DNA from: Selenomonadaceae bacterium
GTDB taxonomy: Bacteria > Bacillota > Negativicutes > Selenomonadales > Selenomonadaceae
Reading direction: 5' to 3'
DNA length: 64,000 bases
Assembly: GCA_017476005.1 (NCBI GenBank)
Contig: JAFVEM010000028.1
Coordinates: 1-64,000 of the forward strand
The position numbers and the translations under genes were made by a program. Within the stretch, counting starts at the first letter, position 1. The number at the start of each line of letters is the position of its first letter. Positions 5,653-45,260 of the stretch are shown here, one piece after another. The notes under the pieces are model-generated. The model ran no database searches. It was not told the origin of the DNA and saw only the letters and a list, made by a program, of their open reading frames with translations.

Positions 5653-5820
5653 CTACGCCAACAAAGGGGCAAAGACCGCTTGCTTAGTTGGCGGTATAAG
5701 GAGCGCGTCCATGGCATCTTTGGCCGTCCAATTCTTGGTTTGCATCAGATTGCGAACGGCACGGGTCAAAGCACTATCCACCGCCTCCCGTTCGCGGTCG
5801 CGCATTTCCAAATCGTACAT
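5653..5820 (-). CDS. Candidate internal C-terminal product of the Rpn gene (RpnS-like)
   Basis: In frame with the larger Rpn gene. GGAGG at 5837-5833 (minus strand) lies 9 nt before a GTG at 5823 and 12 nt before an ATG at 5820. Either start would give a helical tail protein of about 55 residues containing LMQTKNWTAKDAMDALL. Similar internal ribosome sites occur at the equivalent place in the Rpn remnants at 25036 and 45030. E. coli Rpn genes are reported to encode intragenic C-terminal antitoxin proteins; whether this one is made is inference. Confidence 0.35.
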   Translation of the reverse strand: MYDLEMRDREREAVDSALTRAVRNLMQTKNWTAKDAMDALLIPPTKQAVFAPLLA

Positions 5821-6531
5821 CACGTAGTCCAGCCTCCATTTCTCATTAGATTTCACCTTCTGCACAGCCTCGTCCAGCCGTTTTACAAAATCGTCTTCGG
5901 TTGGTCGTCCGCATAGGTAGTCAAAAAAGGGTTTCAGTTCCTTGTTTCTGTCTTCCATTGCCTTTACATCTATTTTTTCTTTCTCATCGGTTGCTTTCTT
6001 TTCCTTGGTCTTGATATTGAGAAAAATCTTGCTGGTACCATCGCCCAGTTCCAACGCGGCATCTTCTGCGCAGACGTTGCGGAAGGTATAAACCGGCAAG
6101 CCATTGTCGAAGGGGTCAAAGCTACAGATGAAAACGATGGTGGATTCGTTAAGGGTCTCGTAGTCCTGTCCACGCTCCAAGAAGTCAAGGTCAATCAGAC
6201 TTTGGTAGTAACGCACACGTTTAGGCAGAAATTCCCGGTTTTTGGTTTGCATCTCCAAGACAATGGCGTGATCCAAATCGTCCATGAGATACACATCAAG
6301 CCGCACACTGCGACTATCGCGGCGAAGTTGCACGGTTTTTTCGGTTTCCGGGAAGGTAATGTGGTGGATACTTCGTCCCAAAATCTTTTCACACAGTTCC
6401 CGGCATAAGTCTGGATTACTCTGCATAGTTTTTTGGAAGATGAAGTTGTCCATGAGGGTGAGGGATTCCCACTTGCGTTCGGCGGCAAGCCTATCGGCTT
6501 CGCGTTGTTCCTCCGGGGTGAGTCCTAGCAT
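5653..6531 (-). CDS. Rpn-family PD-(D/E)XK nuclease (putative transposase)
   Basis: 292 residues and apparently full length. It begins in the Rpn style with LTLMDNFIFQKTMQSNPDLC, has the nuclease core Asp in RLDVYLMDD and the E-x-Q of VLEMQTK (about residues 75-95), then the family block STIVFICSFDPFD. The C-terminal part is helical with RAVRNLMQTKNWTAKDAM. Family knowledge: Rpn proteins are DNA endonucleases linked to recombination and phage defence. It stands alone on the minus strand inside a + strand polysaccharide locus, with its own terminator, so it was probably inserted. A candidate internal start is listed separately. Confidence 0.85.
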   Translation of the reverse strand: MLGLTPEEQREADRLAAERKWESLTLMDNFIFQKTMQSNPDLCRELCEKILGRSIHHITFPETEKTVQLRRDSRSVRLDVYLMDDLDHAIVLEMQTKNREFLPKRVRYYQSLIDLDFLERGQDYETLNESTIVFICSFDPFDNGLPVYTFRNVCAEDAALELGDGTSKIFLNIKTKEKKATDEKEKIDVKAMEDRNKELKPFFDYLCGRPTEDDFVKRLDEAVQKVKSNEKWRLDYVMYDLEMRDREREAVDSALTRAVRNLMQTKNWTAKDAMDALLIPPTKQAVFAPLLA

Positions 6532-6661
6532 GGAGTGGCCTCCTTTCGATTAGATTTCTGTATTTATTATAGCTTATGGTTGGCGGTGTGTCAATGGGTT
6601 TTTGAGATGGGTTAGCTTTCACATTTGCATGTGTAATATTTTACCGCATAGGGGTAACATT

Positions 6662-7774
6662 ATGATAAGGGTTTTGCAGATAATAGGCATTGTTTGTGGT
6701 GGTGGCGTGGAAGCTGTCATTATGAACTATTATCGCCACATTGACCGTTCACGGGTGCAGTTCGACTTTGTGATTGATGGATATGAGAAGTCGATATTAG
6801 ATGCTGAGATTGAGGCGCTGGGCGGCAAAGTTTATCGGGTGGAACCTTATCGTAAAAATATCTTCCGCTATATGTGGCAGATTTATGACATTATTCGTGT
6901 GGGCGGCTATGATATAGTACACTCCAACATGAATACGCTATCCGGCTTTTCACTTTTGTCTGCTTATTTTGGTGGTGTAAGGGTCAGAATACTGCATAAC
7001 CATTCCACGGCCACTTCCCATGAAGGTATGCGAACCGTTTTGAAAGTGTTGCTTCGTCCGTTTGCTAGATTATTCGCTAACCGTTATGTGGCTTGCTCTC
7101 ATACAGCCGGTATCTGGATGTATGGTCGATGTTTAATGAATAATGGTGGTGTCAAGATTTTAAACAACGCGGTAGATACAAATAGATTTTCTTTTTCCCC
7201 GTCACTTCGACAAAAATATCGTAGTGAATTGGGTGTAGATGAAAAAACACTGGTTATTGGTCACATAGGTAGGTTCATGTATCAGAAAAACCACGAGTTC
7301 TTGATTGATGTTTTTCGGCCGATACATGCTAAACATTCCAATACTGTATTATTACTGATAGGTGATGGAGAAAGACGTAAATTCATTGAACAAAAGGTTA
7401 AGGATTACGGGTTGGAAAAAGCGGTGCGTTTTCTGGGATTAAGAAATGATGTGGCCGGTTTATATAATGCCATGGATTTATTTATGCTACCGTCGTGGTA
7501 TGAAGGACTGCCGGTAGTGGCAGTGGAGGCGCAAGCTAACGGGCTCAGGTGTGTCTTTTCCGATAGAGTAACAAGGGAAAGTAAGTTGCTAGACAGCACA
7601 GAGTTTCATGCTTTGGAGGAGGGGGCACCAAAATGGGCAGAATATATTTTACACGGTAATAACGTCAGGGAAGATAGCGCTATCGAAAGAATATCCGCGG
7701 CAGGTTTTGATATCAAGTCGGAGGCTAAGAACTTGGTAGCTTTTTATGAAGATAACATAAAAGCCACCGCATGA
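6662..7774 (+). CDS. Glycosyltransferase family 4 (GT-B)
   Basis: About 370 residues. N-terminal domain opens RVLQIIGIVCGGGVEAVIMN; C-terminal domain has VIGHIGRFMYQKNHEFLID, LLIGDGERR and the nucleotide-sugar motif PSWYEGLPVVAVEAQA (E-x7-E). It is a retaining GT-B enzyme adding a sugar to the lipid-linked repeat unit at the cytoplasmic face. I start it at ATG 6662 (AGGGGT ribosome site) instead of the in-frame ATG at 6602, whose first 20 codons look non-coding. The final codons (KATA-stop) lie inside a terminator hairpin of the downstream toxin-antitoxin module, so the natural 3' end may have been replaced. Confidence 0.9.
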   Translation: MIRVLQIIGIVCGGGVEAVIMNYYRHIDRSRVQFDFVIDGYEKSILDAEIEALGGKVYRVEPYRKNIFRYMWQIYDIIRVGGYDIVHSNMNTLSGFSLLSAYFGGVRVRILHNHSTATSHEGMRTVLKVLLRPFARLFANRYVACSHTAGIWMYGRCLMNNGGVKILNNAVDTNRFSFSPSLRQKYRSELGVDEKTLVIGHIGRFMYQKNHEFLIDVFRPIHAKHSNTVLLLIGDGERRKFIEQKVKDYGLEKAVRFLGLRNDVAGLYNAMDLFMLPSWYEGLPVVAVEAQANGLRCVFSDRVTRESKLLDSTEFHALEEGAPKWAEYILHGNNVREDSAIERISAAGFDIKSEAKNLVAFYEDNIKATA

Positions 7775-7783
7775 GGCGGTGGC
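7757..7783 (-). terminator. Terminator of the PIN/AbrB module
   Basis: GCCACCGC (7763-7770) pairs with GCGGTGGC (7776-7783) around a 5-nt loop. On the minus strand a TTTTA run follows. It overlaps the last codons and the stop of the upstream + strand glycosyltransferase and nearly repeats the hairpin at 5614. Confidence 0.65.
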
Positions 7784-7788
7784 GAAAA

Positions 7789-8190
7789 TCAAGAAAAGTA
7801 TTCTTCTAGGAAGTCAGACACAGTCAAAATTTTAATATCAGCGTATTTTTCTAGCGAAAGTAAATCTTTGTCTCCACTTACGATGTAGATACAGTTAGCA
7901 TCTACGGCACATTCAATAAATTTATCATCATCGGGATCTCTGCATACAGATATTACAGATGCTGGCGTTATGGTATGACAGGCTGAACTTATATCCCTCA
8001 AATTAAATCTCATTGGTTTTTGCGGATAACGCTTATGTACTTTATTGACACTACGATTATACTCTTTCAGGATCTCCGATGAAGCGTAAGCCTCAAATTC
8101 GTGAGTCAATAACATTTCGACCAGTTTTTTGGGTAGCCCACCGAAGAATATGGCCGATACAATCACGTTGGTATCAATAACGATGTTCAT
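7789..8190 (-). CDS. PIN-domain toxin (putative ribonuclease)
   Basis: 133 residues. Typical PIN start NIVIDTNVIVSAIFFGG with the first catalytic Asp (residue 6), a middle Glu in SSEILKEY, RDPDDDKFIECA and the last Asp in VSGDKDLLSL. PIN toxins cut RNA with a metal ion. Its ATG overlaps the stop of the upstream antitoxin gene (ATGA at 8187-8190), the classic toxin-antitoxin arrangement. The pair lies on the minus strand inside the polysaccharide locus. Target RNA is unknown. Confidence 0.88.
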   Translation of the reverse strand: MNIVIDTNVIVSAIFFGGLPKKLVEMLLTHEFEAYASSEILKEYNRSVNKVHKRYPQKPMRFNLRDISSACHTITPASVISVCRDPDDDKFIECAVDANCIYIVSGDKDLLSLEKYADIKILTVSDFLEEYFS

Positions 8191-8519
8191 GCATATTTCC
8201 TTACTCGATTTTCCTCACGTACCTCTCGTATGGCATCAGCTATATCCTGCTCGGTTAGCCCAACTTCTTTTGCCCATGCGGCTGCCGACTGCATCCCAGC
8301 GCAAAATTTTTCTATATCCGGCTTCGGTAACGGCTGGATGCGAATCCCCGAACCGTCACGCACTATAAGCATGGTGGAATTAGGCACCAGTCCTAACGAA
8401 GCGCGAATAGATGATGGTATGTTCACCAAACCTTCCGAGGACATACTGACAAATTCCGTATCGTCACGATACAACAATTCATCAATATCCGCCTCGGAGG
8501 TGATGATGCTATCAGACAT
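8187..8519 (-). CDS. AbrB/MazE-type antitoxin
   Basis: About 110 residues. The middle (residues 28-65) is a SpoVT/AbrB swapped-hairpin DNA-binding domain: SSEGLVNIPSSIRASLGL and then an RDGSGIRIQPL strand. The C-terminal half is helical and should bind the PIN toxin encoded immediately downstream. I use ATG 8519, about 10 nt after AAGGAG; a GTG at 8528 is almost on top of that site. AbrB antitoxins usually repress their own operon, which I expect here but cannot see. Confidence 0.83.
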   Translation of the reverse strand: MSDSIITSEADIDELLYRDDTEFVSMSSEGLVNIPSSIRASLGLVPNSTMLIVRDGSGIRIQPLPKPDIEKFCAGMQSAAAWAKEVGLTEQDIADAIREVREENRVRKYA

Positions 8520-8806
8520 ACTAAGCACACTCCTTTTTTAATCATAGAAGCTATTTAGTTTTCCCTCTGCATTTTTTGTTATGGTCACAATATATTTTAT
8601 TGCAAATGCTTTCCTCTTTCACAGATCATGACTAAGATGCATCATAACGTATATTTAGCCTTATGTCAAGTAAATTTTATCGTCATTGTGGGGACGAGTG
8701 CAAGCAGTGAATGTCGTTATTGCCATTGAGATTATGTAAAATTCGCTCAGAGTTAAGGGCGGCTATAGAAAACGCCAATGCGTGAGGTGGGAGGTGGAGA
8801 AACATA
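8520..8806. other. AT-rich non-coding stretch upstream of the antitoxin and glycosyltransferase scraps
   Basis: Contains the ribosome site of the antitoxin (minus strand, AAGGAG near 8531-8538) and presumably its promoter. I see no credible reading frame, RNA gene or clear repeat. Near 8771-8796 there is a degenerate form of the GCCACCGC hairpin (CGCCAATGCGTGAGGTGGGAGGTGG). It leads into two glycosyltransferase remnants. Confidence 0.4.
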
Positions 8807-8938
8807 GTGAACGCCATCATTGTAAACGACTATGCTTATGTAAATGGCGGTACGGGTAATGTTGCCTTCTATACTGCAAAGCTGTTGGCCGGTAGCGGTG
8901 TAAATACAATTTTAGGTCATGTCAAGAGTTTTACATAA
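8807..8938 (+). pseudogene. N-terminal scrap of a GT4 glycosyltransferase
   Basis: A 43-codon frame starting GTG at 8807 after GGAGGTGG. It reads NAIIVNDYAYVNGGTGNVAF, then YTAKLLAGSG, the usual first strand, glycine loop and helix of GT4 enzymes, then drifts and stops at 8936-8938. The remaining 300 or so residues are absent. It retains a ribosome site, so a short peptide could be made, but the enzyme is lost. Confidence 0.6.
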
Positions 8939-9036
8939 AATAAATTTTTAAAGTTAATTTTGTAACAGAATTTTATGGTTCAAGTCTTTTAGATATGTCA
9001 ATATTTGCGGTGGCAAAAAAATAAGGTGTATTTTTC

Positions 9037-9189
9037 ATGAATGTCGCGTTTACCACATCCGGTCATTTACCTGTTCCACCTACTAAATGGAGAGCAGTAG
9101 AAAATCTGGTGTATGACTTGATGAACGGGGGTACAAAGGACACGGATATATATTGTCCATCAGCGTTGGTTATGGTCGGAGGGATGTAG
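9037..9189 (+). pseudogene. Second N-terminal scrap of a GT4 glycosyltransferase
   Basis: A 50-codon frame from ATG 9037 begins NVAFTTSGHLPVPPTKWRAV and ENLVYDLMNGG, close to the common GT4 opening with PPTKGGAVENL. It then ends at TAG 9187, two bases before the next intact gene starts. The expected second glycine of the loop is replaced (KWRAV). It looks like the stump of a gene deleted when the downstream DUF6625 gene was joined on. Confidence 0.6.
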
Positions 9190-9191
9190 TG

Positions 9192-10178
9192 ATGAAGTCT
9201 ATCACCATGCTGTGTCCATATTTTGGACGGTTGCCCTCATACTTTACTGTTGTTCTTAACTCCATGAAGTTGAACCCTTCCGTCAATTGGTTGATATTTA
9301 CCGATGATAATACGTCATATGACTATCCATCCAATGTTAAAGTGGTTAGCATGACCTTTGCCGATATGCAAACTTATATAAAGATTCGTATGCCGATAGA
9401 TATATCTTTACCAACAGTTTATAAACTCTGTGATTACAAACCGTTTTACGGCATAATTTTTCGGGAGTATTTAATCGATGCTGATTTTTGGGGATATTGT
9501 GATTTCGATTGCATTTTCGGCGATATTCGTCACTTTATGACCTCAAGTATTTTGGATATTTACGACAAATGTATGTGGCTTGGGCATTTTACTATCTATC
9601 GAAACACGGAGAAAATATCAAATATCATAGCCGACATCTTAAAAAAACCGTTTATCCAGAAAGCATTGTTAGATAGCGAAAATTATGGTTTGGATGAACG
9701 GACTTTGCCATATCTTTTGCGCGACTACGAGATATCTGTGTACGATAATGAAGAAGTCATCGGAGATATATATTGTCTGCATAGTAACTTTACTCTAGTG
9801 AAGGCCATACTGACTGCAAAAGACAATGACTATCGAAAAATGACTTTGCGACCAATCATGCGAAAAGAACGGGGCATAATCTTCAAAAGAACGGCTGAGG
9901 GGTTATACGGCTATTACTTGGTAAACAACAAATTAGTCACCAAAGAATATATGTATTGTCATCTACAGAAAAGAAAAATGGCAATGCAAGACGTAGGAGA
10001 AAGGGATTTTTGGATAGTACCCAATACGTTCATGAAAGACAATGGGGAAAATGAAGCAGAGATGGTGAAAAAGTATCGTAAATGGTTTTTCTATTGGCCA
10101 TGTTACATGATAATGTATAAGAAATTGAAGTATAGATTGAAGAAGATTATAAGTAATAAATATATTGCTGGATGTTGA
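9192..10178 (+). CDS. DUF6625-family glycosyltransferase-like protein
   Basis: About 328 residues. Starts KSITMLCPYFGRLPSYFTVV, then NWLIFTDD, then KLCDYKPFYGIIF and a DxD-like FWGYCDFDCIFGDI near residue 112, which could bind a metal and nucleotide sugar. This pattern fits DUF6625 proteins found in capsule loci; no enzyme activity is proven, so transferase is inference from motif and context. I use ATG 9192, 8 nt after GGAGGG; an earlier ATG at 9153 overlaps the preceding scrap. The gene is strongly AT-rich, suggesting transfer. Confidence 0.75.
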   Translation: MKSITMLCPYFGRLPSYFTVVLNSMKLNPSVNWLIFTDDNTSYDYPSNVKVVSMTFADMQTYIKIRMPIDISLPTVYKLCDYKPFYGIIFREYLIDADFWGYCDFDCIFGDIRHFMTSSILDIYDKCMWLGHFTIYRNTEKISNIIADILKKPFIQKALLDSENYGLDERTLPYLLRDYEISVYDNEEVIGDIYCLHSNFTLVKAILTAKDNDYRKMTLRPIMRKERGIIFKRTAEGLYGYYLVNNKLVTKEYMYCHLQKRKMAMQDVGERDFWIVPNTFMKDNGENEAEMVKKYRKWFFYWPCYMIMYKKLKYRLKKIISNKYIAGC

Positions 10179-10334
10179 TGACAGTTTTGTAGATAATTTA
10201 TCGAGTTATATGCAAGACTTATGGATAATAGTGAGGAACTGATAAATTTGAAGTGGGATGTCATAGCAAATCATAACAAATTCCCTAGTCTGAAAGATTA
10301 TTGTGAAGAATTTGCGGAACTGGTACAAGGTTGA
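10179..10334 (+). pseudogene. Frameshifted C-terminal scrap of a glycosyltransferase
   Basis: Directly after the DUF6625 stop, one frame reads DDSFVDNLSSYMQDL and a second frame continues from 10221 as MDNSEELINLKWDV, ending FPSLKDYCEEFAELVQG at the stop 10332-10334. Joined, they resemble the last helices of a GT4 enzyme. The rest is missing. It may be the far end of the gene whose N-terminus survives at 9037, with the DUF6625 gene inserted between; that is inference. Confidence 0.5.
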
Positions 10335-10339
10335 TTTTT

Positions 10340-11605: not shown

Positions 11606-11612
11606 AGTTAGT

Positions 11613-12602: not shown

Positions 12603-12651
12603 GCATTGGCAAAACAATATGTTTTTTACCAACTAATAGGAGGAACATACC

Positions 12652-25035: not shown

Positions 25036-25254
25036 CTACGCCTTCAGCATGGCGGCGTAGGTAGCTTGCTCAGCGGTAGGGATGCTTAGAGCTTCCATGG
25101 CCTGTGTGGCAGTCCAGCTCATGTTTTTCATGAGGTTACGCAGTGAGGACAGTAGGCATTCTTGGACACCTTTTTGGATACCTTTTTGGATACCGTTCCG
25201 TTCGCCTTCCTCCCGTAATTCATCCGAGGGGAGCCTGAATACTTCTCCTAGCAT
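25036..25254 (-). CDS. Candidate internal C-terminal Rpn tail protein (RpnS-like)
   Basis: 72 residues from ATG 25254 with AAAGGAGGT at 25273-25265, 10 nt upstream: a near-perfect ribosome site inside the Rpn frame, coded by the K-E-V-N-N-I-M segment. The product has EGERNGIQKGIQKGVQE and then SLRNLMKNMSWTATQ. The nuclease part above it is broken but this unit is intact, as at 45030. Function as an intragenic antitoxin is inferred from reports on E. coli Rpn genes. Confidence 0.45.
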   Translation of the reverse strand: MLGEVFRLPSDELREEGERNGIQKGIQKGVQECLLSSLRNLMKNMSWTATQAMEALSIPTAEQATYAAMLKA

Positions 25255-25471
25255 GATGTTATTTACCTCCTTTTTGGTGAGGGGTTCCTTGGCAAGGATT
25301 GCGTCGATAACGTTACGCATAATTATGACCAAGTCGGCATAATCCTTTAGCGCGATGGCCACATCGTATTCAAACATGCGTACAATCATCGTGCCATCCG
25401 GCGTGCTTTGGCATTCCACATGATAGGTCAATATGAAATCACCAATACTTATTGCGTTTACTATAAACGCT
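25036..25471 (-). pseudogene. Rpn-family nuclease gene, truncated and internally deleted
   Basis: Recognisable pieces are FILTYHVECQS, GTMIVRMFEYDVAIAL and then YADLVIIMRNVIDAIL. The N-terminal nuclease start is missing; the upstream end is abutted by the GNAT toxin gene, and roughly a hundred residues expected between the first and second blocks are gone. The frame technically opens to 25563, but those extra codons are the GNAT gene read in the wrong frame. The tail (EERNG/QKG repeats, SLRNLMKNMSWTATQAMEAL) is intact and resembles that of the Rpn at 5653. Nuclease activity is very unlikely. Confidence 0.7.
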
Positions 25472-26083
25472 TCAAATAAACCGTAAAAGTTGCACCAGCT
25501 CTTCTTCGCCGTCCTCCGACGCCGCGGTTCGTCGGTCAAAGGCTTTAAACCCGTTTCTGGCATAAAAATCCAGTAGGAAAGGCGTGTCCTCGCACTCGAG
25601 GAACTCTACCACGCCGCCAACAATATGTCGTGCCATCTTCACGGTCATATCGGCCAGCCCTAGCAGGGCTGTACCGGAAATCCGTTTTTCCGGCGGCAGG
25701 GAAAAGTTCTTACCCAGTTGGGCAATAAGATAGGCAGAGGCCGTATAGGTGCCGTTTTCTCTGTTTAAGGTACTTACGCGCAAAAGTTTTTTCTCCATAG
25801 TCCTGCTGAGAACAGAAGCGCGGATGGAGACGGGTTTAACGGCGAGGGTGAAATAACCGACAAATATTTCTTCCTTGGCAGTCGGCTGAAAGACTAAGTA
25901 TGTAACCGATTGATTTTTCTTGGTAAATTCAATGGCGTTGCGCTTTAGAAAATGCTCTACCTCCGCATTGGGCGGACACGAGAAGCCTTCTATCAGCTTC
26001 CGCACAGCCTTTTCGCCAATAAAAGCAGGGTCGTCCTCGTTTAGGGCGTTATGAATATTCACTCCGTAACATGCTGTACTCAT
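25472..26083 (-). CDS. GNAT-family acetyltransferase, probable toxin (copy 1)
   Basis: 203 residues. GNAT-like features: IEFTKKNQSVTYLVF, GYFTLAVKPVSI, YLIAQLGKNFSLP (acetyl-CoA strand and loop) and the C-terminal DTPFLLDFYARNGFKAFD, the usual last strand with the Tyr/Asn-Gly-Phe motif. GNAT toxins acetylate aminoacyl-tRNA; that activity here is inference. ATG overlaps the stop of the 68-residue partner gene by 4 nt. The last 50 residues are nearly identical to copy 2, the first 150 clearly diverged. Confidence 0.78.
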   Translation of the reverse strand: MSTACYGVNIHNALNEDDPAFIGEKAVRKLIEGFSCPPNAEVEHFLKRNAIEFTKKNQSVTYLVFQPTAKEEIFVGYFTLAVKPVSIRASVLSRTMEKKLLRVSTLNRENGTYTASAYLIAQLGKNFSLPPEKRISGTALLGLADMTVKMARHIVGGVVEFLECEDTPFLLDFYARNGFKAFDRRTAASEDGEEELVQLLRFI

Positions 26084-26286
26084 ACTTTCCCCTCTGTCTT
26101 TAACTGAGCTTTGATTTTGCTGGCAAAGGTTGCCAGTTCTCGCGGATCGGTCAGAATCCTTCCCACAGGCTCCGTGGGGGGGCGATGTTTCGCCTCCTCT
26201 TCGGATTCTTCCAGCGCCTGAACAAACCGCTCCACCGCCGCCGGGTCGGTGATGAAAAAATTGTGGGTGATGCTTGAGGTGGCCAT
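26080..26286 (-). CDS. Probable antitoxin of GNAT pair (copy 1)
   Basis: 68 residues. N-terminus ATSSITHNFFITDPAAVERF is identical to copy 2; the C-terminal half (PTEPVGRILTDPRELATFAS) is diverged. I do not recognise a ribbon-helix-helix fold with confidence. Its size, order and ATGA overlap with the GNAT gene are the basis for calling it an antitoxin. The ribosome site TAGGAGGAA precedes the ATG. Confidence 0.65.
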   Translation of the reverse strand: MATSSITHNFFITDPAAVERFVQALEESEEEAKHRPPTEPVGRILTDPRELATFASKIKAQLKTEGKV

Positions 26287-26343
26287 GTGTATTCCTCCTA
26301 TCGGAAAATTATGCTGCTACCGGCAGTATATTGCCTGAACGCT

Positions 26344-26955
26344 TCAAATAAACCGCAAAAGTTGCACCAGCTCTTCTTCGTCGTCCTCCGACGCTGCGGT
26401 TCGCCGGTCAAAGGCTTTAAACCCGTTTCTGGCATAAAAATCCAGCAGGAAAGGCGTGTCCTCGCACTCGAGGAACTCTACCACGCCGCCAATGTCGTAT
26501 TGGGTTTTGGCAATGCGCTGGCCGGCAAGGTCAAGAAGCGCTGCGCCTCCGATGCGCTCCTCCTTTGGCAAGGCGAAATTTTTTCCTAGCTGGGCAACGA
26601 GATAGGCCGAAGCCGTGTAGGTGTTGGTTACGGGATTAAGGACGCTAACGCGCGCCAGTTTCCTGCCCATGGTTTTGCTGATAGCCGAGGCACGAACAGA
26701 AAGGGGCTTGATGGTGAGAGTGAAGTAACCCACCAACAAATCGCTATATGAAACGCGGTTAAATACCAGATAGGTTACAGACTGACTTTTCTTGGTAAAT
26801 TCTATGGCACTGTGCTTTAAGAATTGTTCAACTTCTTGGTTAGGCGGACAGGAAAAGTCGCTGAGAAGGCTGTTTAACGCTTTTTCACCCATATAGGCAG
26901 AGTCTTTTGGGTCGAGGGTGCGGCGTAGATTTATCGTGTAGAATGACGTACTCAT
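26344..26955 (-). CDS. GNAT-family acetyltransferase, probable toxin (copy 2)
   Basis: 203 residues, same layout as copy 1: IEFTKKSQSVTYLVFN, GYFTLTIKPLSVRAS, YLVAQLGKNFALPKEER and the identical C-terminal LLDFYARNGFKAFDRRTAAS. The N-terminal half (SFYTINLRRTLDPKDSAYMG) differs at many positions from copy 1. Overlaps its partner gene by 4 nt (26952-26955). It is the upstream pair in the transcription direction. Confidence 0.78.
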   Translation of the reverse strand: MSTSFYTINLRRTLDPKDSAYMGEKALNSLLSDFSCPPNQEVEQFLKHSAIEFTKKSQSVTYLVFNRVSYSDLLVGYFTLTIKPLSVRASAISKTMGRKLARVSVLNPVTNTYTASAYLVAQLGKNFALPKEERIGGAALLDLAGQRIAKTQYDIGGVVEFLECEDTPFLLDFYARNGFKAFDRRTAASEDDEEELVQLLRFI

Positions 26956-27158
26956 AATTTACCGGCTGCTTTTAGTTGTGACTTAAGTCGAGTGGCAAAA
27001 GCGGCAAGTTCCTCTGGCGCTGTGAGTTCTCTTCCCACCGGTTCACGGGGGACGCGGTTCCTTTTTTCTTCTTCCGCTTCTTCCAGCGCCTGAACAAACC
27101 GCTCCACCGCCGCCGGGTCGGTGATGAAAAAATTATGGGTGATGCTTGAGGTGGCCAT
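26952..27158 (-). CDS. Probable antitoxin of GNAT pair (copy 2)
   Basis: 68 residues. First 27 residues match copy 1; the rest (EEKRNRVPREPVGRELTAP, then AFATRLKSQLKAAGKL) diverges. First gene of the four-gene minus-strand cluster. The same TAGGAGGAA ribosome site precedes it. Divergence in the C-terminal part, which in most antitoxins binds the toxin, suggests each pair is specific for itself. Confidence 0.65.
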   Translation of the reverse strand: MATSSITHNFFITDPAAVERFVQALEEAEEEKRNRVPREPVGRELTAPEELAAFATRLKSQLKAAGKL

Positions 27159-32499: not shown

Positions 32500-34323
32500 T
32501 TGAATGATCTTTCGGTGCAAATGACGGCGGCGCGGACTCTGCTCCGCCGCTTTTACGGTTACGACAGTTTTCGCGCCGCCCAAGAGCCGGTAATAGAAAG
32601 TCTGCTCTCCCGGCAAGATACGGTGGCCATCATGCCCACCGGCGCCGGCAAATCAATTTGTTTTCAAATACCGGCGCTAATGCTCCCAGGGATAACCTTG
32701 GTGATTTCCCCCCTGATTTCTTTAATGAAAGATCAGGTGGATGCCTTGACGGAACAGGGGGTGCCGGCTACCTTTCTCAACAGCACCCTGTCTTTTGCGG
32801 AGGCGCAAGAACGGCTGAAGTATATCGCTTCCGGCGAGTGCAAGCTGGTTTATCTCGCGCCGGAACGTTTGGAGAGCGAAAATTTTCGCCGGAAAATGGC
32901 CGCCTTTAATGTGTCCATGGTGGCGGTGGATGAAGCTCACTGCGTTTCCCAGTGGGGACACGATTTTCGTCCCAGTTATCGGCTGATTGCCCCCTTTATC
33001 GCCGGCCTTCCCCGTCGCCCCCTCATGGGAGCCTTTACGGCCACGGCTACCCCGGAGGTAAAGGACGATATGGTAAAACTCCTGAAACTTCGGGAGCCGA
33101 GGGTGTATGTCAGCGGCTTTGACCGTCCCAATCTGTCCTTTGCTGTTTTGCGAGAAAAAAATAAGGATGCCTTTGTGGCCAGTTTTGTGCAAGAACATGT
33201 TAGCGACGCCGGTATCATCTACACCGCCACCCGGAAGAACGCCGAGAGCCTCTGCGATTTTCTGCGGCAAAGAAATATTCGGGCAGGATGCTACCATGCC
33301 GGACTTACCGACGAAGAACGCAAGGAGGCTCAAGAGGATTTTCTCTACGATAATATTTCGGTTATCGTGGCCACCTGCGCCTTTGGTATGGGGATTGACA
33401 AATCCAACGTGCGCTACGTTATTCACTACAATATGCCGCAAAACGTGGAGGCTTATTATCAAGAAGCCGGGCGCGCCGGTCGCGACGGCGAAAACGCCCA
33501 GTGTCTCCTCCTTTTTTCCGAAAGCGATGTGGCTACCCAGCGCTATCTCATCAATCGCTCCGGCGAGGATGAGGCGCGCATCGCCTATAATTTAAGTCGC
33601 TTGCAATTCATGGTAAATTATTGCCACACCACCGAATGTCTGCGGCATTTTATCATAAACTATTTTGGGGATACCGCTTTCCCGAGAGAATGTCATAATT
33701 GCAGTAATTGTTTGTCTGCCAAGTCCAAAGTAGATGTGACCATTGATGCCCAGAAGGTTTTTTCCTGCGTCTATCGGCTGAACAGAGCCAAGATAAATGC
33801 GAGTGTGGTGATGGTGACGCGAGTGCTTATGGGGTCGAAGGACAAACGACTGCTGGCATTGGGGCTGGATAAACTTTCCACCTACGGCCTGTTTCGGAGC
33901 CGGGAGCGAGGGGAAATAAAGGAATTGGTGCAACGGTTTATGGCCGCCGATTACCTCGAGCAACGGGAGGGGCAGTATGCCAACGTGGTACTGAAGAGCA
34001 GCGCCTACCCCGTGCTGAAGAGTGAGGCCAAGGTCTATTTAAACCTGCCGCAAAAAGCGCCCTCGCGCGCGCGGACGCCCGTCAAAGAGCCTCTAACCGT
34101 AGATACGGAGCTTTTCGAGGCGCTTCGCGTTTTGCGGAAAAAAATTGCCCGGCAGGAAAAGGTGCCGCCTTACATGGTCTTTGCCGATTCTGCCCTAAGG
34201 GATATGTGCGCCAAGAAGCCGCGCACTTTAGAGGCCATGCGACAGGTCAAGGGCGTGGGAGATCTAAAGCTCCAGCGCTACGGCCAAGATTTTTTGGCGT
34301 GTCTCATGGCAAACAGTCATTGA
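32500..34323 (+). CDS. recQ: ATP-dependent DNA helicase RecQ
   Basis: 607 residues. Walker A AIMPTGAGKSICFQ near 44-57, DEAHCVSQWGHDFRPSY at about 144, helicase C-terminal motifs ATCAFGMGIDKSNVR and QEAGRAGRDG, a zinc site CRECHNCSNC type (ECHNCSNC near 395) with the upstream Cys in TECLRHF, then RQC and a C-terminal HRDC domain (PPYMVFADSALRDM). A 3'-5' helicase in recombination and replication repair. TTG start after GGAAGG; an in-frame ATG at 32521 is an alternative. All conserved motifs are intact. Confidence 0.96.
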   Translation: MNDLSVQMTAARTLLRRFYGYDSFRAAQEPVIESLLSRQDTVAIMPTGAGKSICFQIPALMLPGITLVISPLISLMKDQVDALTEQGVPATFLNSTLSFAEAQERLKYIASGECKLVYLAPERLESENFRRKMAAFNVSMVAVDEAHCVSQWGHDFRPSYRLIAPFIAGLPRRPLMGAFTATATPEVKDDMVKLLKLREPRVYVSGFDRPNLSFAVLREKNKDAFVASFVQEHVSDAGIIYTATRKNAESLCDFLRQRNIRAGCYHAGLTDEERKEAQEDFLYDNISVIVATCAFGMGIDKSNVRYVIHYNMPQNVEAYYQEAGRAGRDGENAQCLLLFSESDVATQRYLINRSGEDEARIAYNLSRLQFMVNYCHTTECLRHFIINYFGDTAFPRECHNCSNCLSAKSKVDVTIDAQKVFSCVYRLNRAKINASVVMVTRVLMGSKDKRLLALGLDKLSTYGLFRSRERGEIKELVQRFMAADYLEQREGQYANVVLKSSAYPVLKSEAKVYLNLPQKAPSRARTPVKEPLTVDTELFEALRVLRKKIARQEKVPPYMVFADSALRDMCAKKPRTLEAMRQVKGVGDLKLQRYGQDFLACLMANSH

Positions 34324-34388
34324 CGGTAATGAGTAACAGTGTTATACTCCAACTGTACGGATTTTACGAGAAAGGAGGACTGACAACT

Positions 34389-34799
34389 ATGGGCTGGACA
34401 GAGGAAGACAAGAAGGCCTTGCGAGAATTTTTAAACGAAGCTTCGCGTACCATGGGAGTCATGCTTAAAGAGGCGGAGGAGCGGTTGAGAAAAGACCTCC
34501 GGCAGGAGAGCAAGGCATCTGAAGAGCGGCTGAGAAAAGGCCTCCAGCATGAAATCCGGGCATCTGAAGAGCGGCTGAGAAAAGAGATCAAAGCATCGGA
34601 AGAACGACTCAGAAAAGAGTTCAGGGCTTCTGACGAGCAACTGAGAAAAGACCTACAGCAGGACTTCATGGAGTTTGAGGAACGGCGGAAAGAAGATACC
34701 CAGCAGGATTTCGAGGCGCTAGAGGAGCGCGTGGAAGAACTGGAGGATTTACAAGACGGTATTGGCCAGCTGTACCAAGAACATAAACTGAGCGCCTAG
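34389..34799 (+). CDS. Charged coiled-coil repeat protein of unknown function
   Basis: 136 residues, almost wholly Lys/Arg/Glu helix. The unit EERLRK recurs six times with spacings of 15, 15, 11, 11 and 15 residues, a hendecad/pentadecad pattern that favours a straight or right-handed coiled coil. At DNA level GCATCTGAAGAGCGGCTGAG occurs identically at 34515 and 34560, 45 bp apart, so copy number may vary. No signal peptide or membrane helix. ATG 34389 follows AAAGGAGG; the longer frame from 34206 overlaps recQ. It is followed by its own terminator. No function is assigned. Confidence 0.65.
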   Translation: MGWTEEDKKALREFLNEASRTMGVMLKEAEERLRKDLRQESKASEERLRKGLQHEIRASEERLRKEIKASEERLRKEFRASDEQLRKDLQQDFMEFEERRKEDTQQDFEALEERVEELEDLQDGIGQLYQEHKLSA

Positions 34800-39304: not shown

Positions 39305-39307
39305 TTT

Positions 39308-39385: not shown

Positions 39386-39450
39386 GTAGTAAAATTTACT
39401 TATTGAGGGGTACGGGTTAAAAAAATTTTTTTGCATTTTATTTTAATTAC

Positions 39451-39530
39451 AAAGGGAGTCCAGAGGGGCGAAGCTCCTTTGGCAGGTCAAGGGCAGCGCC
39501 CTTGCAGGGTATGGGGCAGCGCCCCATAAA
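39451..39530 (-). repeat. Intergenic palindromic repeat array, inverted copy
   Basis: The same family as 39308-39385 in opposite orientation: on the minus strand it reads TGGGGCGCTGCCCCATACCC, then CTGCAAGGGCGCTGCCCTTG, then GGAGCTTCGCCCCTCTGGAC. The two arrays face each other across 65 bp of AT-rich DNA before minC. Confidence 0.75.
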
Positions 39531-39547
39531 AAAACAAGTGTGGGGTA

Positions 39548-40192: not shown

Positions 40193-40214
40193 CAGAGAAA
40201 GGGCGGATACTTTC

Positions 40215-41003
40215 ATGAGCGAAGTAATAGTTATCACCTCCGGCAAAGGCGGGGTGGGCAAGACAACCACCACGGCCAATTTGGGCGTGGGGCTGGCCAT
40301 GCGCGGGAAAAAAGTGGTGTTGGTGGATACCGACACCGGTCTTAGGAATTTGGATCTTTTGTTGGGCTTAGAAAATCGCATTATGTACGATTTGATCGAC
40401 GTCACCGAAGGCCGAGTGCATTTCAAAAAAGCCTTGGTACGACACAAGAAATACGAAAGTCTCTTCCTTTTGCCCACTTCCCAAGTCAAGGATAAGTCGG
40501 CGGTGAACCCGGAGCAACTGGTGCGGCTGTGTAATGATCTTAGGCAGGAATTTGACTATGTGCTTATCGATTGTCCCGCCGGTATCGAGCAGGGATTTCA
40601 GACGGCCATCGCGGCGGCTGACTGGGCTTTGGTAGTGACCATGCCGGAGATTTCCGCCGTTAGAGATGCGGATAAAATAATCGGCGAACTGGGTCGCGCC
40701 GACAAAGAGAATATAAAACTCGTGGTGAACCGCATTCGTCCCCAAATGGTAGAAAAAGGGGACATGCTGGACATGGACGATATTAACGATATACTTTCCA
40801 TTGAGTGCATCGGGCAGATTCCCGACGATGAGAAGGTGGTGACTTCCACCAACCGCGGCGAGCCGGTTATTTCGCTGGATGACAGCCAAGCCGGGCAAGC
40901 ATACCGCAATGTGGTAGGACGCATTTGCGGCGAGGACATTCCCTTCATGACTTTTCCCAAAGAAAGTTTCTTCCAGCGGCTGAGGCATGCTCTGGGCATG
41001 TAA
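40215..41003 (+). CDS. minD: Septum site-determining ATPase MinD
   Basis: 262 residues. Deviant Walker A VITSGKGGVGKTTTTANLGV at 6-25, switch regions VLVDTDTGLRNLDLLLGLE and YVLIDCPAGIE, and a C-terminal amphipathic helix SFFQRLRHALGM for membrane binding. Recruits MinC and oscillates or concentrates at poles under MinE. GAAAGGG ribosome site. Confidence 0.98.
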   Translation: MSEVIVITSGKGGVGKTTTTANLGVGLAMRGKKVVLVDTDTGLRNLDLLLGLENRIMYDLIDVTEGRVHFKKALVRHKKYESLFLLPTSQVKDKSAVNPEQLVRLCNDLRQEFDYVLIDCPAGIEQGFQTAIAAADWALVVTMPEISAVRDADKIIGELGRADKENIKLVVNRIRPQMVEKGDMLDMDDINDILSIECIGQIPDDEKVVTSTNRGEPVISLDDSQAGQAYRNVVGRICGEDIPFMTFPKESFFQRLRHALGM

Positions 41004-41015
41004 GGGGGACTGGAG

Positions 41016-41279
41016 ATGATCAATTTGCTTATGAAGATTTTCGGGAAGAGTGAACGCTCTTCTCGCGAGATAGCTCGCGATCGACTGAAGGTAGTGCTGA
41101 TTCACGACCGCGCCAACGTTTCCCCGGAGGTTATGGATCACCTGCGGTCGGACATTATCCGCGTCATCTCGAACTATATGGAGATAAACCAGCGAGACAT
41201 GGAAATTACCCTAGCCAACGACGAGGATTCCGTGGCGCTCGTGGCGAACATTCCCGTCAGCAAAATGAAACACGCCTAG
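41016..41279 (+). CDS. minE: Cell division topological factor MinE
   Basis: 87 residues. N-terminal membrane and MinD-contact region (INLLMKIFGKSERSSREIAR), then RLKVVLIHDRANVSPEVMD and the C-terminal topological-specificity strand. Stimulates MinD ATPase. Presence of MinE instead of only DivIVA fits a diderm Firmicute. Confidence 0.96.
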   Translation: MINLLMKIFGKSERSSREIARDRLKVVLIHDRANVSPEVMDHLRSDIIRVISNYMEINQRDMEITLANDEDSVALVANIPVSKMKHA

Positions 41280-41306
41280 GGGCTGTAATGAGGCAGAGTT
41301 AGTCAC

Positions 41307-42410
41307 ATGAACAAGCGATTGCTAAGACGACTGGATTTTCGGCTCATAGCGGTGGTGGCGTGTATTGTTATCATTAGTATTGTTATAATCGGCAGCGCCA
41401 CCCATATAAATACTCCCAGCGATGAACGTTATTGGTATGTGCAGCGTCAAGGCATTTCGGCTATTCTCAACGTGGCGTTGGCGTTGTTCCTCATGAATTT
41501 CGATTACAAAATGCTTCAGGGCTACGGCAATCGGCTCTACATATTCAATATCATCATGCTGCTGGCGGTGATGCTCTTCGGCCATGCGGCTCTGGGGGCG
41601 CAACGCTGGATAGCCATCGGCCCTTTAACCATTCAGCCCTCGGAGTTCTCGAAGCTCATTATGATTATCGCGCTGGCCGCCATGCTGGAGGAGCGAGTGG
41701 GAAAGATTAACACCCTCCAGGATTTACTGCCCATAGCCGCCTATGTGGGACTTCCCTTTCTCTTGGTGCTGAAGCAGCCGGATCTCGGTACTTCCTTGGT
41801 GTTTATGGCCATATTTTTCGGCATGATTTTTGTCTGTGGGATAAAATTGAGGCTGCTGGCCGGAATATTTGCCTTTGGGGCGGCTATGCTCCCGGTGTTG
41901 TGGCAGTTTTTGAAGGACTACCAGAAGATGCGCATCATGGTCTTTATCGACCCCAATGTGGATCCCTTGGGTTCCGGCTATCACATCATTCAATCAAAAA
42001 TCGCCATCGGCTCCGGGATGCTTTTTGGCAAAGGTCTTTTTGGCGGTACTCAAAGCCAACTGAATTTCCTGCCGGAGAATCACACGGATTTTATTTTCGC
42101 CGTGGTAGGGGAGGAACTGGGCTTTGTGGGGGGCGCGGCGCTCCTGCTCCTGTATTTGGTGGTACTGTGGCGCGGCGTGCAAATAGCCAAAGACGCCAGC
42201 GACGTTTTTGGAAGGTTGCTGGCAGTGGGCATAACTTCGATGCTGGCCTTTCATGTCTTGGTAAACGTAGGCATGACCATGGGCATCATGCCCGTAACGG
42301 GTATTCCCCTGCCGCTAATGAGCTACGGGGTCAGTTCTCTCACCACCAATATTTTAGCCATAACCATCTTGCTGAACATTCACATGCGAAAAACGAAGTT
42401 GGTGTTTTGA
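41307..42410 (+). CDS. rodA: RodA peptidoglycan glycosyltransferase (SEDS family)
   Basis: 367 residues with about ten membrane helices. SEDS landmarks: GAQRWIAIGPLTIQPSEFSK with the catalytic-loop region, FLKDYQKMRIMVFIDPNVDP, NFLPENHTDFIFAVVGEELG and the ending PLPLMSYGVSSL. Polymerises glycan strands with PBP2. Last gene of the shape/division block, followed by a strong terminator. Confidence 0.96.
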   Translation: MNKRLLRRLDFRLIAVVACIVIISIVIIGSATHINTPSDERYWYVQRQGISAILNVALALFLMNFDYKMLQGYGNRLYIFNIIMLLAVMLFGHAALGAQRWIAIGPLTIQPSEFSKLIMIIALAAMLEERVGKINTLQDLLPIAAYVGLPFLLVLKQPDLGTSLVFMAIFFGMIFVCGIKLRLLAGIFAFGAAMLPVLWQFLKDYQKMRIMVFIDPNVDPLGSGYHIIQSKIAIGSGMLFGKGLFGGTQSQLNFLPENHTDFIFAVVGEELGFVGGAALLLLYLVVLWRGVQIAKDASDVFGRLLAVGITSMLAFHVLVNVGMTMGIMPVTGIPLPLMSYGVSSLTTNILAITILLNIHMRKTKLVF

Positions 42411-42451
42411 AAAAAACCGGGGCAAGCTGACAGCTTGTCCCGGTTTTTTTT
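42411..42451 (+). terminator. Terminator of the mre-min-rodA block
   Basis: CCGGGGCAAGCT (42417-42428) pairs with AGCTTGTCCCGG (42432-42443), followed by T8; A6 precedes it, so it may also work in reverse. Confidence 0.88.
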
Positions 42452-42562
42452 AGGGGGATTTATCCACATAAAAAAATCGATAGTGTACAATATCTTGTGT
42501 AAACTTTTGAAAAAACTTTCGCTCGGTTGACGCACGGCACTTACCCAAGAAGAATAGACGGC

Positions 42563-43351
42563 TTACCGTAAATATTTTGCTTCCAGCTTTGCCATGGTGC
42601 CGTCCATGCGTAGTTCCGCTAGGACGAAATTGATGTAGTTCATCCATTCTTGGTCGCCCTTGGCCATAAGTATCCCACAGGAGTGCCGCGTGAATGGTTC
42701 GTTTATCAGCGGTGCGGCCAGCCGATTGTCGCTTCTGACATAGTGAGCCGCCTCCACGGTTTCCGTTATCATGATGTCGGCTTTGCCCTCGGCAATTTGG
42801 CGCGGAATGTCGGCGTTTTCGTTATGCACAATGAGCTTGGCGTGTTTTAGATTGGCATGGGCAAATTTTTCATTGGTGCCGCCGGGATTTATCATTACTC
42901 GCACCTCAGGTTTGTCAATGTCGGCAAGGCTCTTGAAACGCTCGGCCTCCTTTTGGCGGCAGAGAATTGTTTTCCCGAACAGCCCTTCTCCATAAGCATC
43001 CGACATAGCCATGGTCTTGGCGCGACTATAATTGCGAGATATGCCGCACAGGGCGATATCGAATTTATCCGCTTGCATATCGGCAGCTAGGGTCGGCCAA
43101 GTCGTTGGCACATATTCGATTTTTACCCCCAAGGATGCGGCGATAAGCTCGGAAAGCTCGGCATCGATCCCCTCGTACTTACCTGTCTCTTGATTCAGAT
43201 ACGACATAGGGATGTAGTCCCCCGTCGTGCCGATGCGAATGGTACCCCTCGCTAGGGTATCTTCCAAATGTCCGGCAGAAGCAATACTTAGCGGTAAAAG
43301 CATGACTGTTGCCAAGCATAGAGCCACCAATAATTTCATCATTTTCATCAT
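42563..43351 (-). CDS. Periplasmic amino-acid-type solute-binding protein (PheC-like)
   Basis: About 262 residues. Signal peptide KLLVALCLATVMLLPLSIASA, then the type II periplasmic-binding fold: GTIRIGTTGDYIPMSYLN, YEGIDAELSELIAASLGV, KFDIALCGISRNYSRAKTM and a hinge NPGGTNEKFA. No lipobox, so a soluble periplasmic protein. Some members of this group are cyclohexadienyl dehydratases (PheC) instead of transport proteins; sequence alone cannot decide. No permease or ATPase adjoins. Three ATGs follow GGGAGGAAA (43354, 43351, 43348); I chose the middle. Confidence 0.82.
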   Translation of the reverse strand: MMKMMKLLVALCLATVMLLPLSIASAGHLEDTLARGTIRIGTTGDYIPMSYLNQETGKYEGIDAELSELIAASLGVKIEYVPTTWPTLAADMQADKFDIALCGISRNYSRAKTMAMSDAYGEGLFGKTILCRQKEAERFKSLADIDKPEVRVMINPGGTNEKFAHANLKHAKLIVHNENADIPRQIAEGKADIMITETVEAAHYVRSDNRLAAPLINEPFTRHSCGILMAKGDQEWMNYINFVLAELRMDGTMAKLEAKYLR

Positions 43352-43438
43352 CATTTTCCTCCCTCGGGGATACAGCACCTTAGCACCGATTTTAAACCAT
43401 GCAATACTATAGCAAGTTGGCCGCCCAAAAACAAGGTC

Positions 43439-44749
43439 TTATTGGCTCAGGCTCCCCCAAACTCCGTCTTTGTAAAGTTTCTCTAGGCGCACGGGGTAAA
43501 ACTCGCCGCCTGTTACCTTGTCCGCCGTATATACCCGAAGGTAACTCTCGGTTAAGCCGTCGCTGATTCCCTCTCGGGTGGTTTCAAACAGCACGGTGAC
43601 TTCGCGTCCCAGAAACCGGCGTGCAAAATCTTGCGCACTCTCAGCGGCTACCTCCTGCAACGCCTTGAGACGCACTTTTTTTATGTTTTCGGGGACAGCT
43701 CCCGACATTTTAGCCGCCGGGGTTCCTTCCCTCGGAGAAAAGGGAAAGACGTGTACCCTCGCAAATTTCATTTGCTCCACAAAATGTTTCGTTTCGTCAA
43801 AAAGTTCCTCCGTCTCTCCGGGAAAGCCTACGATTACATCGGTGGAGATGGCTATATTCGGGAAAACTCGTCTGATTTTTTGCAAGAGAGCGGCATATTC
43901 GGTGGTATTATAGTGGCGATGCATGGCTTTTAATATGGTGTCGGAACCGGCTTGCAGGGGAAGATGCAGGTGAGGACACAGCCGTTTGTCCTGTCCCATG
44001 AGTTCCAGTATTGACGGCGAAACTTCGATGGACTCTAGCGACCCCAGTCGCAACCGTTTCAATCCCGGTACTTTAAGCGCCGCTCGGCAAGCATCGTAAA
44101 GGGAAACGCCCCCCCCTAAGTCGCGACCGTAAGCTCCCAAATGTATCCCGGTCAGCACCATTTCCTTGAAGCCCACGGCTACCAATTTTTCCGTTTCGGC
44201 GCGAATGGAAGCTAGGCTCCGGGAACGCACCGGCCCCCTCGCATAGGGAATTATGCAATAAGAACAAAAATTGTCGCAACCGTCTTCGATTTTCAGAAAG
44301 GCGCGAGTACGCTTGGTGGGGGTAAGCAGGGGAATGTCCTCAAAAAGCCGATTTTCGCGCGCGTTTTGCAGGTTTCCCAAAATTGTGGCCGTGGCGTCCC
44401 TTTCCAACCGCAGGGCTTCCTCCACATAATCCACAATTTTCTCTCGTTCCCTTGTGCCGATAACCACCTTTACCCCGGGGGTGGCGGCTACCTTTTGGGG
44501 ATTAAGCTGGGCGTAGCATCCGGCGACGGCCACTATCCCTTGGGGATTTTGTCTGGCCACCCGGCGTATGAGCTGCCCGGATTTTTTTTCGCTTGAGCCT
44601 GTCACGGCGCAGGTATTCACCACATAAACATCCGCCGTCTCCTCCGGCGCCACTTCCTCATACCCCCGAGCGCGAAACAACCCCACCATAGCGGTGGTTT
44701 CAAACTGATTGACCTTACAACCCAAGGTAACAAAGGCGACTTTCGGCAC
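43439..44749 (-). CDS. mtaB: tRNA t6A37 methylthiotransferase MtaB
   Basis: 436 residues. N-terminal MTTase domain with FVTLGCKVNQFET, VNTCAVTG and AVAGCYAQ giving the three cluster cysteines; radical SAM motif EDGCDNFCSYCIIPYARGP; HLGAYGRDL and VGFPGE; C-terminal TRAM domain. Adds a methylthio group to N6-threonylcarbamoyl-A37 of tRNAs. Its normal upstream partners prmA-rsmE are now 4 kb away because of the restriction island. A run of eight C (44109-44116) codes for its LGGG and is in frame. Confidence 0.96.
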   Translation of the reverse strand: MPKVAFVTLGCKVNQFETTAMVGLFRARGYEEVAPEETADVYVVNTCAVTGSSEKKSGQLIRRVARQNPQGIVAVAGCYAQLNPQKVAATPGVKVVIGTREREKIVDYVEEALRLERDATATILGNLQNARENRLFEDIPLLTPTKRTRAFLKIEDGCDNFCSYCIIPYARGPVRSRSLASIRAETEKLVAVGFKEMVLTGIHLGAYGRDLGGGVSLYDACRAALKVPGLKRLRLGSLESIEVSPSILELMGQDKRLCPHLHLPLQAGSDTILKAMHRHYNTTEYAALLQKIRRVFPNIAISTDVIVGFPGETEELFDETKHFVEQMKFARVHVFPFSPREGTPAAKMSGAVPENIKKVRLKALQEVAAESAQDFARRFLGREVTVLFETTREGISDGLTESYLRVYTADKVTGGEFYPVRLEKLYKDGVWGSLSQ

Positions 44750-44771
44750 GTTATTCCCCTCCTAAAAAAAT

Positions 44772-44790
44772 TTGGGGCAAAGCCCCAAGA
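44772..44790. repeat. GGGGC-AAA-GCCCC palindrome upstream of mtaB
   Basis: Same hairpin as at 31440. A related copy lies at 48838 next to the other rsmE end. Confidence 0.55.
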
Positions 44791-44803
44791 TATAAGCTAT
44801 TAC

Positions 44804-44906
44804 TTACCCCAAATCGCCCAACTCGTATTGTACGATGCTCATGATGGCTAAGGCCGCTGTTTCGGCGCGTAAGATTCGCTTGCCTAAGGTGACGCTCTGA
44901 CCGCCG
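44804..44906 (-). pseudogene. Duplicated 3' end of rsmE
   Basis: About 103 bp with about seven differences from the end of the intact rsmE at 48913-49015, including the stop codon in the same place. Beyond CCGCCG (44906) the two sequences separate. Only the last 33 or so codons exist here, without a start. It lies at the mtaB side of the restriction island and marks the old rsmE-mtaB junction. Confidence 0.85.
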
Positions 44907-44996
44907 CTGACGTTCCTCTCACCACGGCTTTTGTAACTCATTCTAATAGATTGTGCAAATTGTAATATATACCTTTAATAAAGTCAACGATTGATT

Positions 44997-45022
44997 AAAA
45001 AGCCGTCACAAAAGTGACGGCT
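44997..45022 (-). terminator. Terminator of the restriction-modification operon
   Basis: AGCCGTCAC (45001-45009) pairs with GTGACGGCT (45014-45022) around AAAA; on the minus strand TTTTT follows. Confidence 0.85.
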
Positions 45023-45029
45023 GGGGGAG

Positions 45030-45260
45030 TCAGTGAGCCAAAGACGCATTGAGGGTTATGAGGCGTTCCAAGGGGAGATGGGTGTATTTCATTATCGTGT
45101 TGACATCGAGATTATCCTTTAGCATATTCAAAGCCGTGGCGATGATGCCCTCCTCACGGCCTTCCTCACGACCTTTTTTTACGCCGTCATCGAATCCTTC
45201 CTCACGACCGTCTTCCCTACTGGCTGCTAGGGCATCGTCTAAGTTCCATTCAAAGAGCAT
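45030..45260 (-). CDS. Small Rpn C-terminal tail protein (RpnS-like) with its own ribosome site
   Basis: 76 residues from ATG 45260, with a perfect AGGAGGT (45277-45271) 10 nt upstream. The frame opens further to a TTG at 45305 (TDFLKKYEQEVEQ) and this matches the pre-tail part of Rpn nucleases, but no nuclease core exists. The product has FEWNLDDALAAS, an EGREEG/KKG-rich charged helix, and LNMLKDNLDVNTIMKY. It is the last gene of the minus-strand restriction operon. It could be a relic or a stand-alone antitoxin-like tail; see also 25036 and 5653. Confidence 0.55.
   Translation of the reverse strand: MLFEWNLDDALAASREDGREEGFDDGVKKGREEGREEGIIATALNMLKDNLDVNTIMKYTHLPLERLITLNASLAH

Follow-up and report, generated by a model that had tools for sequence, protein, structure and literature searches.

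Three loci of the Rpn nuclease family in a Selenomonadaceae genome carry a Shine-Dalgarno (SD) sequence and an in-frame start codon at the present or former border between the nuclease and its C-terminal tail. They lie within a 64,000-nucleotide stretch (assembly GCA_017476005.1, contig JAFVEM010000028.1, positions 1 to 64,000; hereafter the window), and we put at roughly 85% the probability that all three are, or derive from, gene-within-gene toxin-antitoxin units whose tails are made separately and were kept after nuclease loss at loci 2 and 3. This assessment draws on sequence, on structure models, and on analogy with characterized rpn genes. In E. coli RpnA-E and RpnP2, and in one C. difficile rpn gene, a toxic nuclease (RpnL) and a small protein translated within the same gene (RpnS), which pairs with RpnL and blocks its toxicity, form an intragenic toxin-antitoxin system (Zhong et al. 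2023, PMC10327210; structure PDB 7TH0), and separate RpnS genes also exist in E. coli (PMC10327210).

An earlier note on this DNA had placed purine-rich sites at 5837, 25273, and 45277, each 9-12 nt before an in-frame start. Direct reading confirms these positions to the base, with spacings of 9-12, 10, and 10 nt, respectively. The principal features of the three loci are as follows.

5653-6531, minus: locus 1, intact Rpn-type nuclease gene (RpnL), 292 codons, PD-(D/E)XK motif D...ExQ
5833-5837, minus: locus 1, internal SD-like GGAGG (direct sequence reading)
5653-5823, minus: locus 1, predicted internal RpnS-like tail protein, from GTG 5823 (56 aa) or ATG 5820 (55 aa)
25255-25470, minus: locus 2, nuclease remnant with the segment YHVECQSTPDGT; start and middle lost, fused in frame to the pre-tail region
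25265-25273, minus: locus 2, SD AAAGGAGGT, 10 nt ahead of ATG 25254-25252
25036-25254, minus: locus 2, tail open reading frame (ORF), 72 aa, with 12-nt (four-residue) repeats (tandem repeat 25162-25194)
45261-45305, minus: locus 3, leftover codons of a former Rpn gene before the start, FLKKYEQEVEQV, with the SD within; aligned with FLEKFSEEVQQA before the Met of L241
45271-45277, minus: locus 3, SD AGGAGGT, 10 nt ahead of ATG 45260-45258
45030-45260, minus: locus 3, free-standing tail gene, 76 aa, three predicted helices, 12-nt repeats (tandem repeat 45147-45175)

Codon choice at the nuclease/tail border

The evidence that carries this reading comes from relatives: of 151 genomes in the same bacterial family, 117 have Rpn-type genes, and about 145 non-redundant full-length genes were analysed, SD strength being scored by string matching rather than by energy. 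In-frame ATGs with an SD match of at least 6 concentrated 60-119 residues from the C-terminus, with no comparable pile-up elsewhere. At the border, taken as 55-125 residues from the C-terminus, 61 combinations of an in-frame ATG and an SD match of at least 7 were observed against 14.8 expected from within-gene synonymous shuffles; none of 500 shuffles reached the observed count, and their maximum was 26. The E/K/R-rich repeat helix downstream of the border showed no excess of SD plus ATG over synonymous shuffles, and in the nuclease zone the excess was smaller (10 versus 2.5 expected) and may reflect true gene starts within the stop-to-stop frames. The choice of codons follows the start codon as well: where E precedes a residue with a G-initial codon, the pair was written as GGAGG in 85 of 112 cases (76%) if a Met stood 3-5 codons downstream at the border, as against 30 of 380 (8%) in the absence of such a Met.

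The signal recurs across nuclease families. Clustering by the nuclease part alone (BLAST) gave groups of 104, 19, 11, 6, 4, and 1 genes; group 0 is the PDDEXK_2 type of locus 1, group 1 includes YhgA-like members and L241, a relative of locus 3, and group 2, without a Pfam match, is of the locus 2 type. Groups 0, 1, and 2 were each enriched, with the observed value reached in 0 of 300 shuffles, and for the group of four genes it was reached in 2 of 300. Where the starts align, 18 of 18 genes of group 1 (10.8 expected from synonymous resampling) and 9 of 10 of group 2 (5.3 expected) had an SD of 5 or more bases. The relatives are not fully independent; their 4-mer overlap was limited, and three unrelated groups agree. 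It is hard to reconcile these results with the view that the SD-like words are a by-product of a protein motif (K/E-E-V or E-E-L before a conserved Met) without any internal initiation. That view finds some support in the single-locus chance values given below, but it is refuted for the family by the synonymous shuffles, by the roughly tenfold difference in GGAGG codon choice with and without a Met at the right distance, and by the presence of the signal in three nuclease families, and we regard it as very improbable.

Equally little credence can be given to the idea that the SD-like words pause ribosomes at the domain border and aid folding, the start codon being irrelevant: the site does lie at the domain border in the locus 1 model, but group 0 genes with a Met in the start column have an SD of at least 5 in 54 of 54 cases (27.0 expected) and those without it in only 1 of 7, a lineage with Ala in that column carries SD and start elsewhere, and many free-standing tails begin at the same start. 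In the Ala lineage (L174, L175, L176, L179, L182, and L033, within group 0), GGAGGTG with a GTG or ATG stands about 20 residues further on, as though the internal start had been moved. The earlier note had made its interpretation depend on SD and ATG being conserved more strongly than the protein sequence demands; among Rpn genes of the same family such conservation is seen in the shuffle enrichment, in the co-variation of SD and start within alignment columns, and in three nuclease families. We consider this codon-level evidence decisive in indicating that the SD and start at the Rpn border are kept by selection beyond protein needs.

Beyond this bacterial family, the border SD and start recur in Spirochaetes, Synergistetes, Peptococcaceae, and Lachnospiraceae, and the SD is mostly lacking at the border in Bacteroidota relatives, as would be expected from the weak use that Bacteroidota make of SD sequences. 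In one metagenome-assembled genome of a Spirochaetaceae bacterium, seven Rpn copies (L246, L248, L254, L257, L263, L269, and L286) have GGAGGTGA 7 nt ahead of an in-frame TTG (GGEV/LSILMTEYD, the slash marking the start), which suggests that many Rpn copies in that genome use a TTG internal start.

Within the window itself, 352 internal in-frame ATGs were counted in the larger ORFs, and an SD match of at least 7 preceded two of them, one being locus 2. The other, at 34389 on the plus strand, has an 8-base SD match and lies in ORF 34206-34799, whose match to DISARM DrmD is weak and partial; it may be the true gene start of that ORF. Predicted mRNA folding at the three Rpn starts was not stronger than in shuffled sequence, so that the sites are merely not unusually buried.

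Structure of the three loci

Locus 1 is the full-length form. Its product passes the cut-offs of both Pfam PDDEXK_2 (PF12784; 48.4 bits, cut-off 27.4) and TIGR01784 (81.2 bits, cut-off 52.1) in profile searches. GGAGG at 5837-5833 stands 9 nt from a GTG (5823-5821) and 12 nt from an ATG (5820-5818); the aligned start is the GTG, in whose place the C66 contig paralogue carries an ATG (WRLEY/MVYDF versus WRLDY/VMYDL at locus 1). In the structure model, the nuclease is followed by helices at residues 230-266, 270-276, and 281-291, and the internal start, residue 237 or 238, falls 7-8 residues inside the long helix that opens the tail. The three tail helices have the same arrangement as those of the locus 3 model. 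Foldseek found no significant match for the full-length locus 1 model.

Locus 2 is a deleted Rpn gene. What is left of its nuclease includes a 37-residue segment around YHVECQ that aligns at 46% identity with residues 68-104 of a query taken from the paralogue on contig C74, which is intact. This nuclease family has no Pfam match. The border codons of loci 2 and 3 (K-K-E-V-N-N-I-M and Q-E-V-E-Q-V-M) do align as x-E-V-x-x-[I/V]-M with an equal 10-nt gap, as the earlier note had reported, and its description of the nuclease as broken at locus 2 and absent at locus 3, with intact tails of 72 and 76 aa, is equally accurate. Its notion of a common position holds for the motif that loci 2 and 3 share and does not extend to the nucleases, whose families differ. 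Next to locus 2, two tandem copies of a two-gene cassette occupy 25472-27158 (minus strand), each with a 68-aa ORF that overlaps one of 203 aa. The two 203-aa products share 67% identity and have no Pfam or NCBIfam match; the copies are spaced 872 nt apart, with 97% identity over the last 155 nt and about 73% over the remainder, and the high-identity stretch stops at 25466, where the locus 2 Rpn remnant starts. The cassette is possibly a toxin-antitoxin pair.

At locus 3 the tail stands alone behind a restriction-modification (R-M) pair, in the following setting.

46275-47735, minus: BpuJI-type restriction endonuclease (PF11564, 344 bits), with a 13-nt overlap with the methyltransferase gene
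45316-46287, minus: C5-cytosine DNA methyltransferase (PF00145, 255 bits), directly upstream of the tail gene
45001-45022, minus: terminator-like (intrinsic) hairpin, 7 nt past the stop of the tail gene

The earlier note had called the sites internal; at locus 3, where the nuclease part is absent, it is the ordinary ribosome-binding site of a small gene and is no longer internal because the ORF ahead is that of the methyltransferase, ending 55 nt upstream. We infer that it was formerly internal. The start of locus 3 aligns with residue 325, the internal start, of L241, its closest full-length relative, and the two are homologous at the DNA level from 50 nt upstream of the ATG; in L241, SD and spacing are identical to those of locus 3, and the Met stands one codon later than in the rest of its nuclease group. 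From the order of genes, the tail is likely to be the last gene of the R-M transcription unit. Locus 3 may be a retained antitoxin without its toxin, or a relic of recombination between the R-M pair and an rpn gene.

The model of the locus 3 tail (pLDDT 80.8) consists of one long and two short helices (residues 7-48, 53-60, and 64-75), and the best of 79 Foldseek matches was PDB 7TH0 (probability 0.97, TM score 0.81 on the target, rmsd 1.1 A). An alignment of the locus 3 tail also retrieved 7TH0, E. coli RpnA-S, from the PDB, with repeat-rich 8vd6 and 8g9k scoring above it; searches of the PDB with single sequences gave no match. The alignment and the model match, together with free-standing tails that share starts and are constrained as a class, support the RpnS interpretation that the earlier note had offered.

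If these loci work as in E. coli, the full-length nuclease RpnL would be translated from the gene start and the small three-helix RpnS tail from the internal SD at the nuclease/tail border; RpnS would then pair with the identical tail of RpnL, and the nuclease would be held inactive. Deletion at locus 2, and loss of the whole nuclease part at locus 3, would have left a tail unit that carries a ribosome site of its own, and translation of a free-standing tail protein would now begin from the once internal site.

Free-standing tails and their maintenance

Short ORFs homologous to Rpn tails are common among relatives. In 31 of the 63 listed matches, locus 3 and L241 included, the best SD-start of the short ORF coincides exactly with the internal start of the full-length gene most closely related to it, the remainder including low-similarity and antisense matches. 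Where the tail and the relative belong to different loci, DNA homology starts mostly 10-220 nt upstream of the shared start, a range biased by the 200-aa length limit on the ORFs considered; breakage therefore retains the ribosome site and loses the nuclease. DNA breakpoints of tails that share their parent's locus were unusable, as overlapping flanks align to themselves. When free-standing tails were compared pairwise with the full-length genes closest to them, the median dN/dS was 0.11 (dS 0.05-0.4) and 0.16 (dS 0.4-1.0), compared with 0.07 and 0.10 in the same dS bins for the tails of full-length pairs; these are simple Nei-Gojobori counts on open ORFs of at least 60 aa with 60% identity, and they apply to the class rather than to loci 2 and 3 individually. 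Free-standing tails as a class are under purifying selection.

The genome that contains the window holds further broken forms: a frame-broken gene with an intact tail (contig C44), a gene with a stop between nuclease and tail (C47), and a tail-only ORF (C7), besides intact Rpn-type genes on C1, C66, and C74 and at locus 1. Seven full-length Rpn-type genes (L062, L130, L147, L183, L212, L241, and L242) have at least one tail-only copy nearby in the same locus, like those reported for E. coli rpnC and rpnE. A similar tail ending (RNLM...W/G.T...AM.AL.IP..EQ..YAA) is shared by three or more unrelated nuclease-like families of a single genome, its carriers being L098 (G000 C47), L097 (C74), L102 (C1), and window positions 5653-5823 and 25036-25254. 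This pattern suggests that tail modules may have been exchanged between nuclease families.

The strongest competing account treats loci 2 and 3 as pseudogenes in decay, with tails that no longer serve a function. The locus 2 nuclease has lost its start and middle, a decayed nuclease-type fragment is also found on contig C52, and the genomes searched included none of the same genus with which to gauge selection on these two loci. Against this, free-standing tails are constrained as a class, and locus 3 is intact, with a strong ribosome-binding site and a terminator 7 nt past its stop; we judge decay to be the less likely explanation, while giving it real weight. It is clearly less probable that the R-M operon has co-opted the locus 3 tail in an accessory or regulatory role. 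The order endonuclease-methyltransferase-tail-terminator on one strand fits such a role, but this is a single case, profile searches found no likeness to the known controller proteins of R-M systems, and a recombination scar would explain the junction equally well.

Several observations weigh against separately made Rpn tails at these three loci. Judged singly, the three sites prove little: given the protein and the codon usage of the window, the chance of such an SD is 0.11 at locus 1, 0.13 at locus 2, and 0.18 at locus 3, so that each is compatible with chance, and single-locus values of this size (0.11-0.18) were dropped as undecided and not used as a verdict on the sites. Locus 1 is the weakest of the three: its SD has only 5 bases, its start is ambiguous between the GTG and the ATG, and its tail sequence lacks the four-residue repeats. 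The link to 7TH0 is modest, with an E value of 0.0011 for the profile match of the locus 3 alignment and, the match being short, 0.55 in Foldseek. One of the five clusters of at least four genes, the group of six, showed no enrichment (1 of 6 genes). No nuclease of the locus 3 kind was found in this genome, which is weak evidence given a 93.6% complete assembly and a search without a control. Finally, initiation, toxicity, and antitoxin action at the three loci would follow the published E. coli work by analogy.

Only tentatively would we go on to regard the tails as portable antitoxin modules, and this broader proposal is more doubtful than not: tail units, each bringing its ribosome site along, would sit on several unrelated nuclease families (some of them without a Pfam family), be repeatedly freed by breakage just ahead of the internal site, and be selected, without a toxin of their own, against Rpn nucleases arriving or persisting elsewhere, locus 3 being one that ended up in an R-M unit. 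Since free-standing tails are both common and constrained, "antitoxin without toxin" becomes a testable state. The analysis also flags many short tail ORFs that annotation would overlook or label as fragments.

Relation to known Rpn systems

The principle of the intragenic Rpn system, separate RpnS genes included, has been known since 2023 (PMC10327210), and a literature search, with most subscription journals outside its scope, returned nothing later on the Rpn family beyond that paper and an ortholog-tool paper mentioning it. What is new here is codon-choice selection as evidence independent of expression, nuclease groups without a Pfam match, class-level constraint on free-standing tails, and a single tail gene that probably belongs to an R-M transcription unit. 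The gene-within-gene design thereby gains independent codon-level support in a distant bacterial family and in unnamed nuclease families.

With respect to annotated families, locus 1 belongs with the Rpn recombination-promoting nucleases of TIGR01784/COG5464 (PDDEXK_2), whereas loci 2 and 3 match by fragments or tail only, below the cut-off. Pfam Transposase_31 (PF04754, YhgA-like) is above its cut-off for L203, whose nuclease is related to that of L241, but gives no such match for L241 itself, and locus 3 has no nuclease domain.

The likeness to E. coli Rpn lies in the nuclease with its small tail, the SD and start at the border, the three-helix tail, and the separate copies of the tail gene. 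The four-residue repeats of E. coli RpnS lie 8-20 residues past the start, and those of loci 2 and 3 are placed in the same way. In contrast to the E. coli genes, the loci described here are known from sequence and models, their SD words vary by subfamily, the locus 2 nuclease family lacks a Pfam match, and locus 3 stands without a nuclease behind an R-M pair. A close counterpart of the latter two loci is ypaA (RpnES), a separate RpnS gene of E. coli, which likewise stands by itself and descends from the tail of an rpn gene; however, the separate RpnS genes of E. coli adjoin their full-length parent, whereas loci 2 and 3 have none adjoining.

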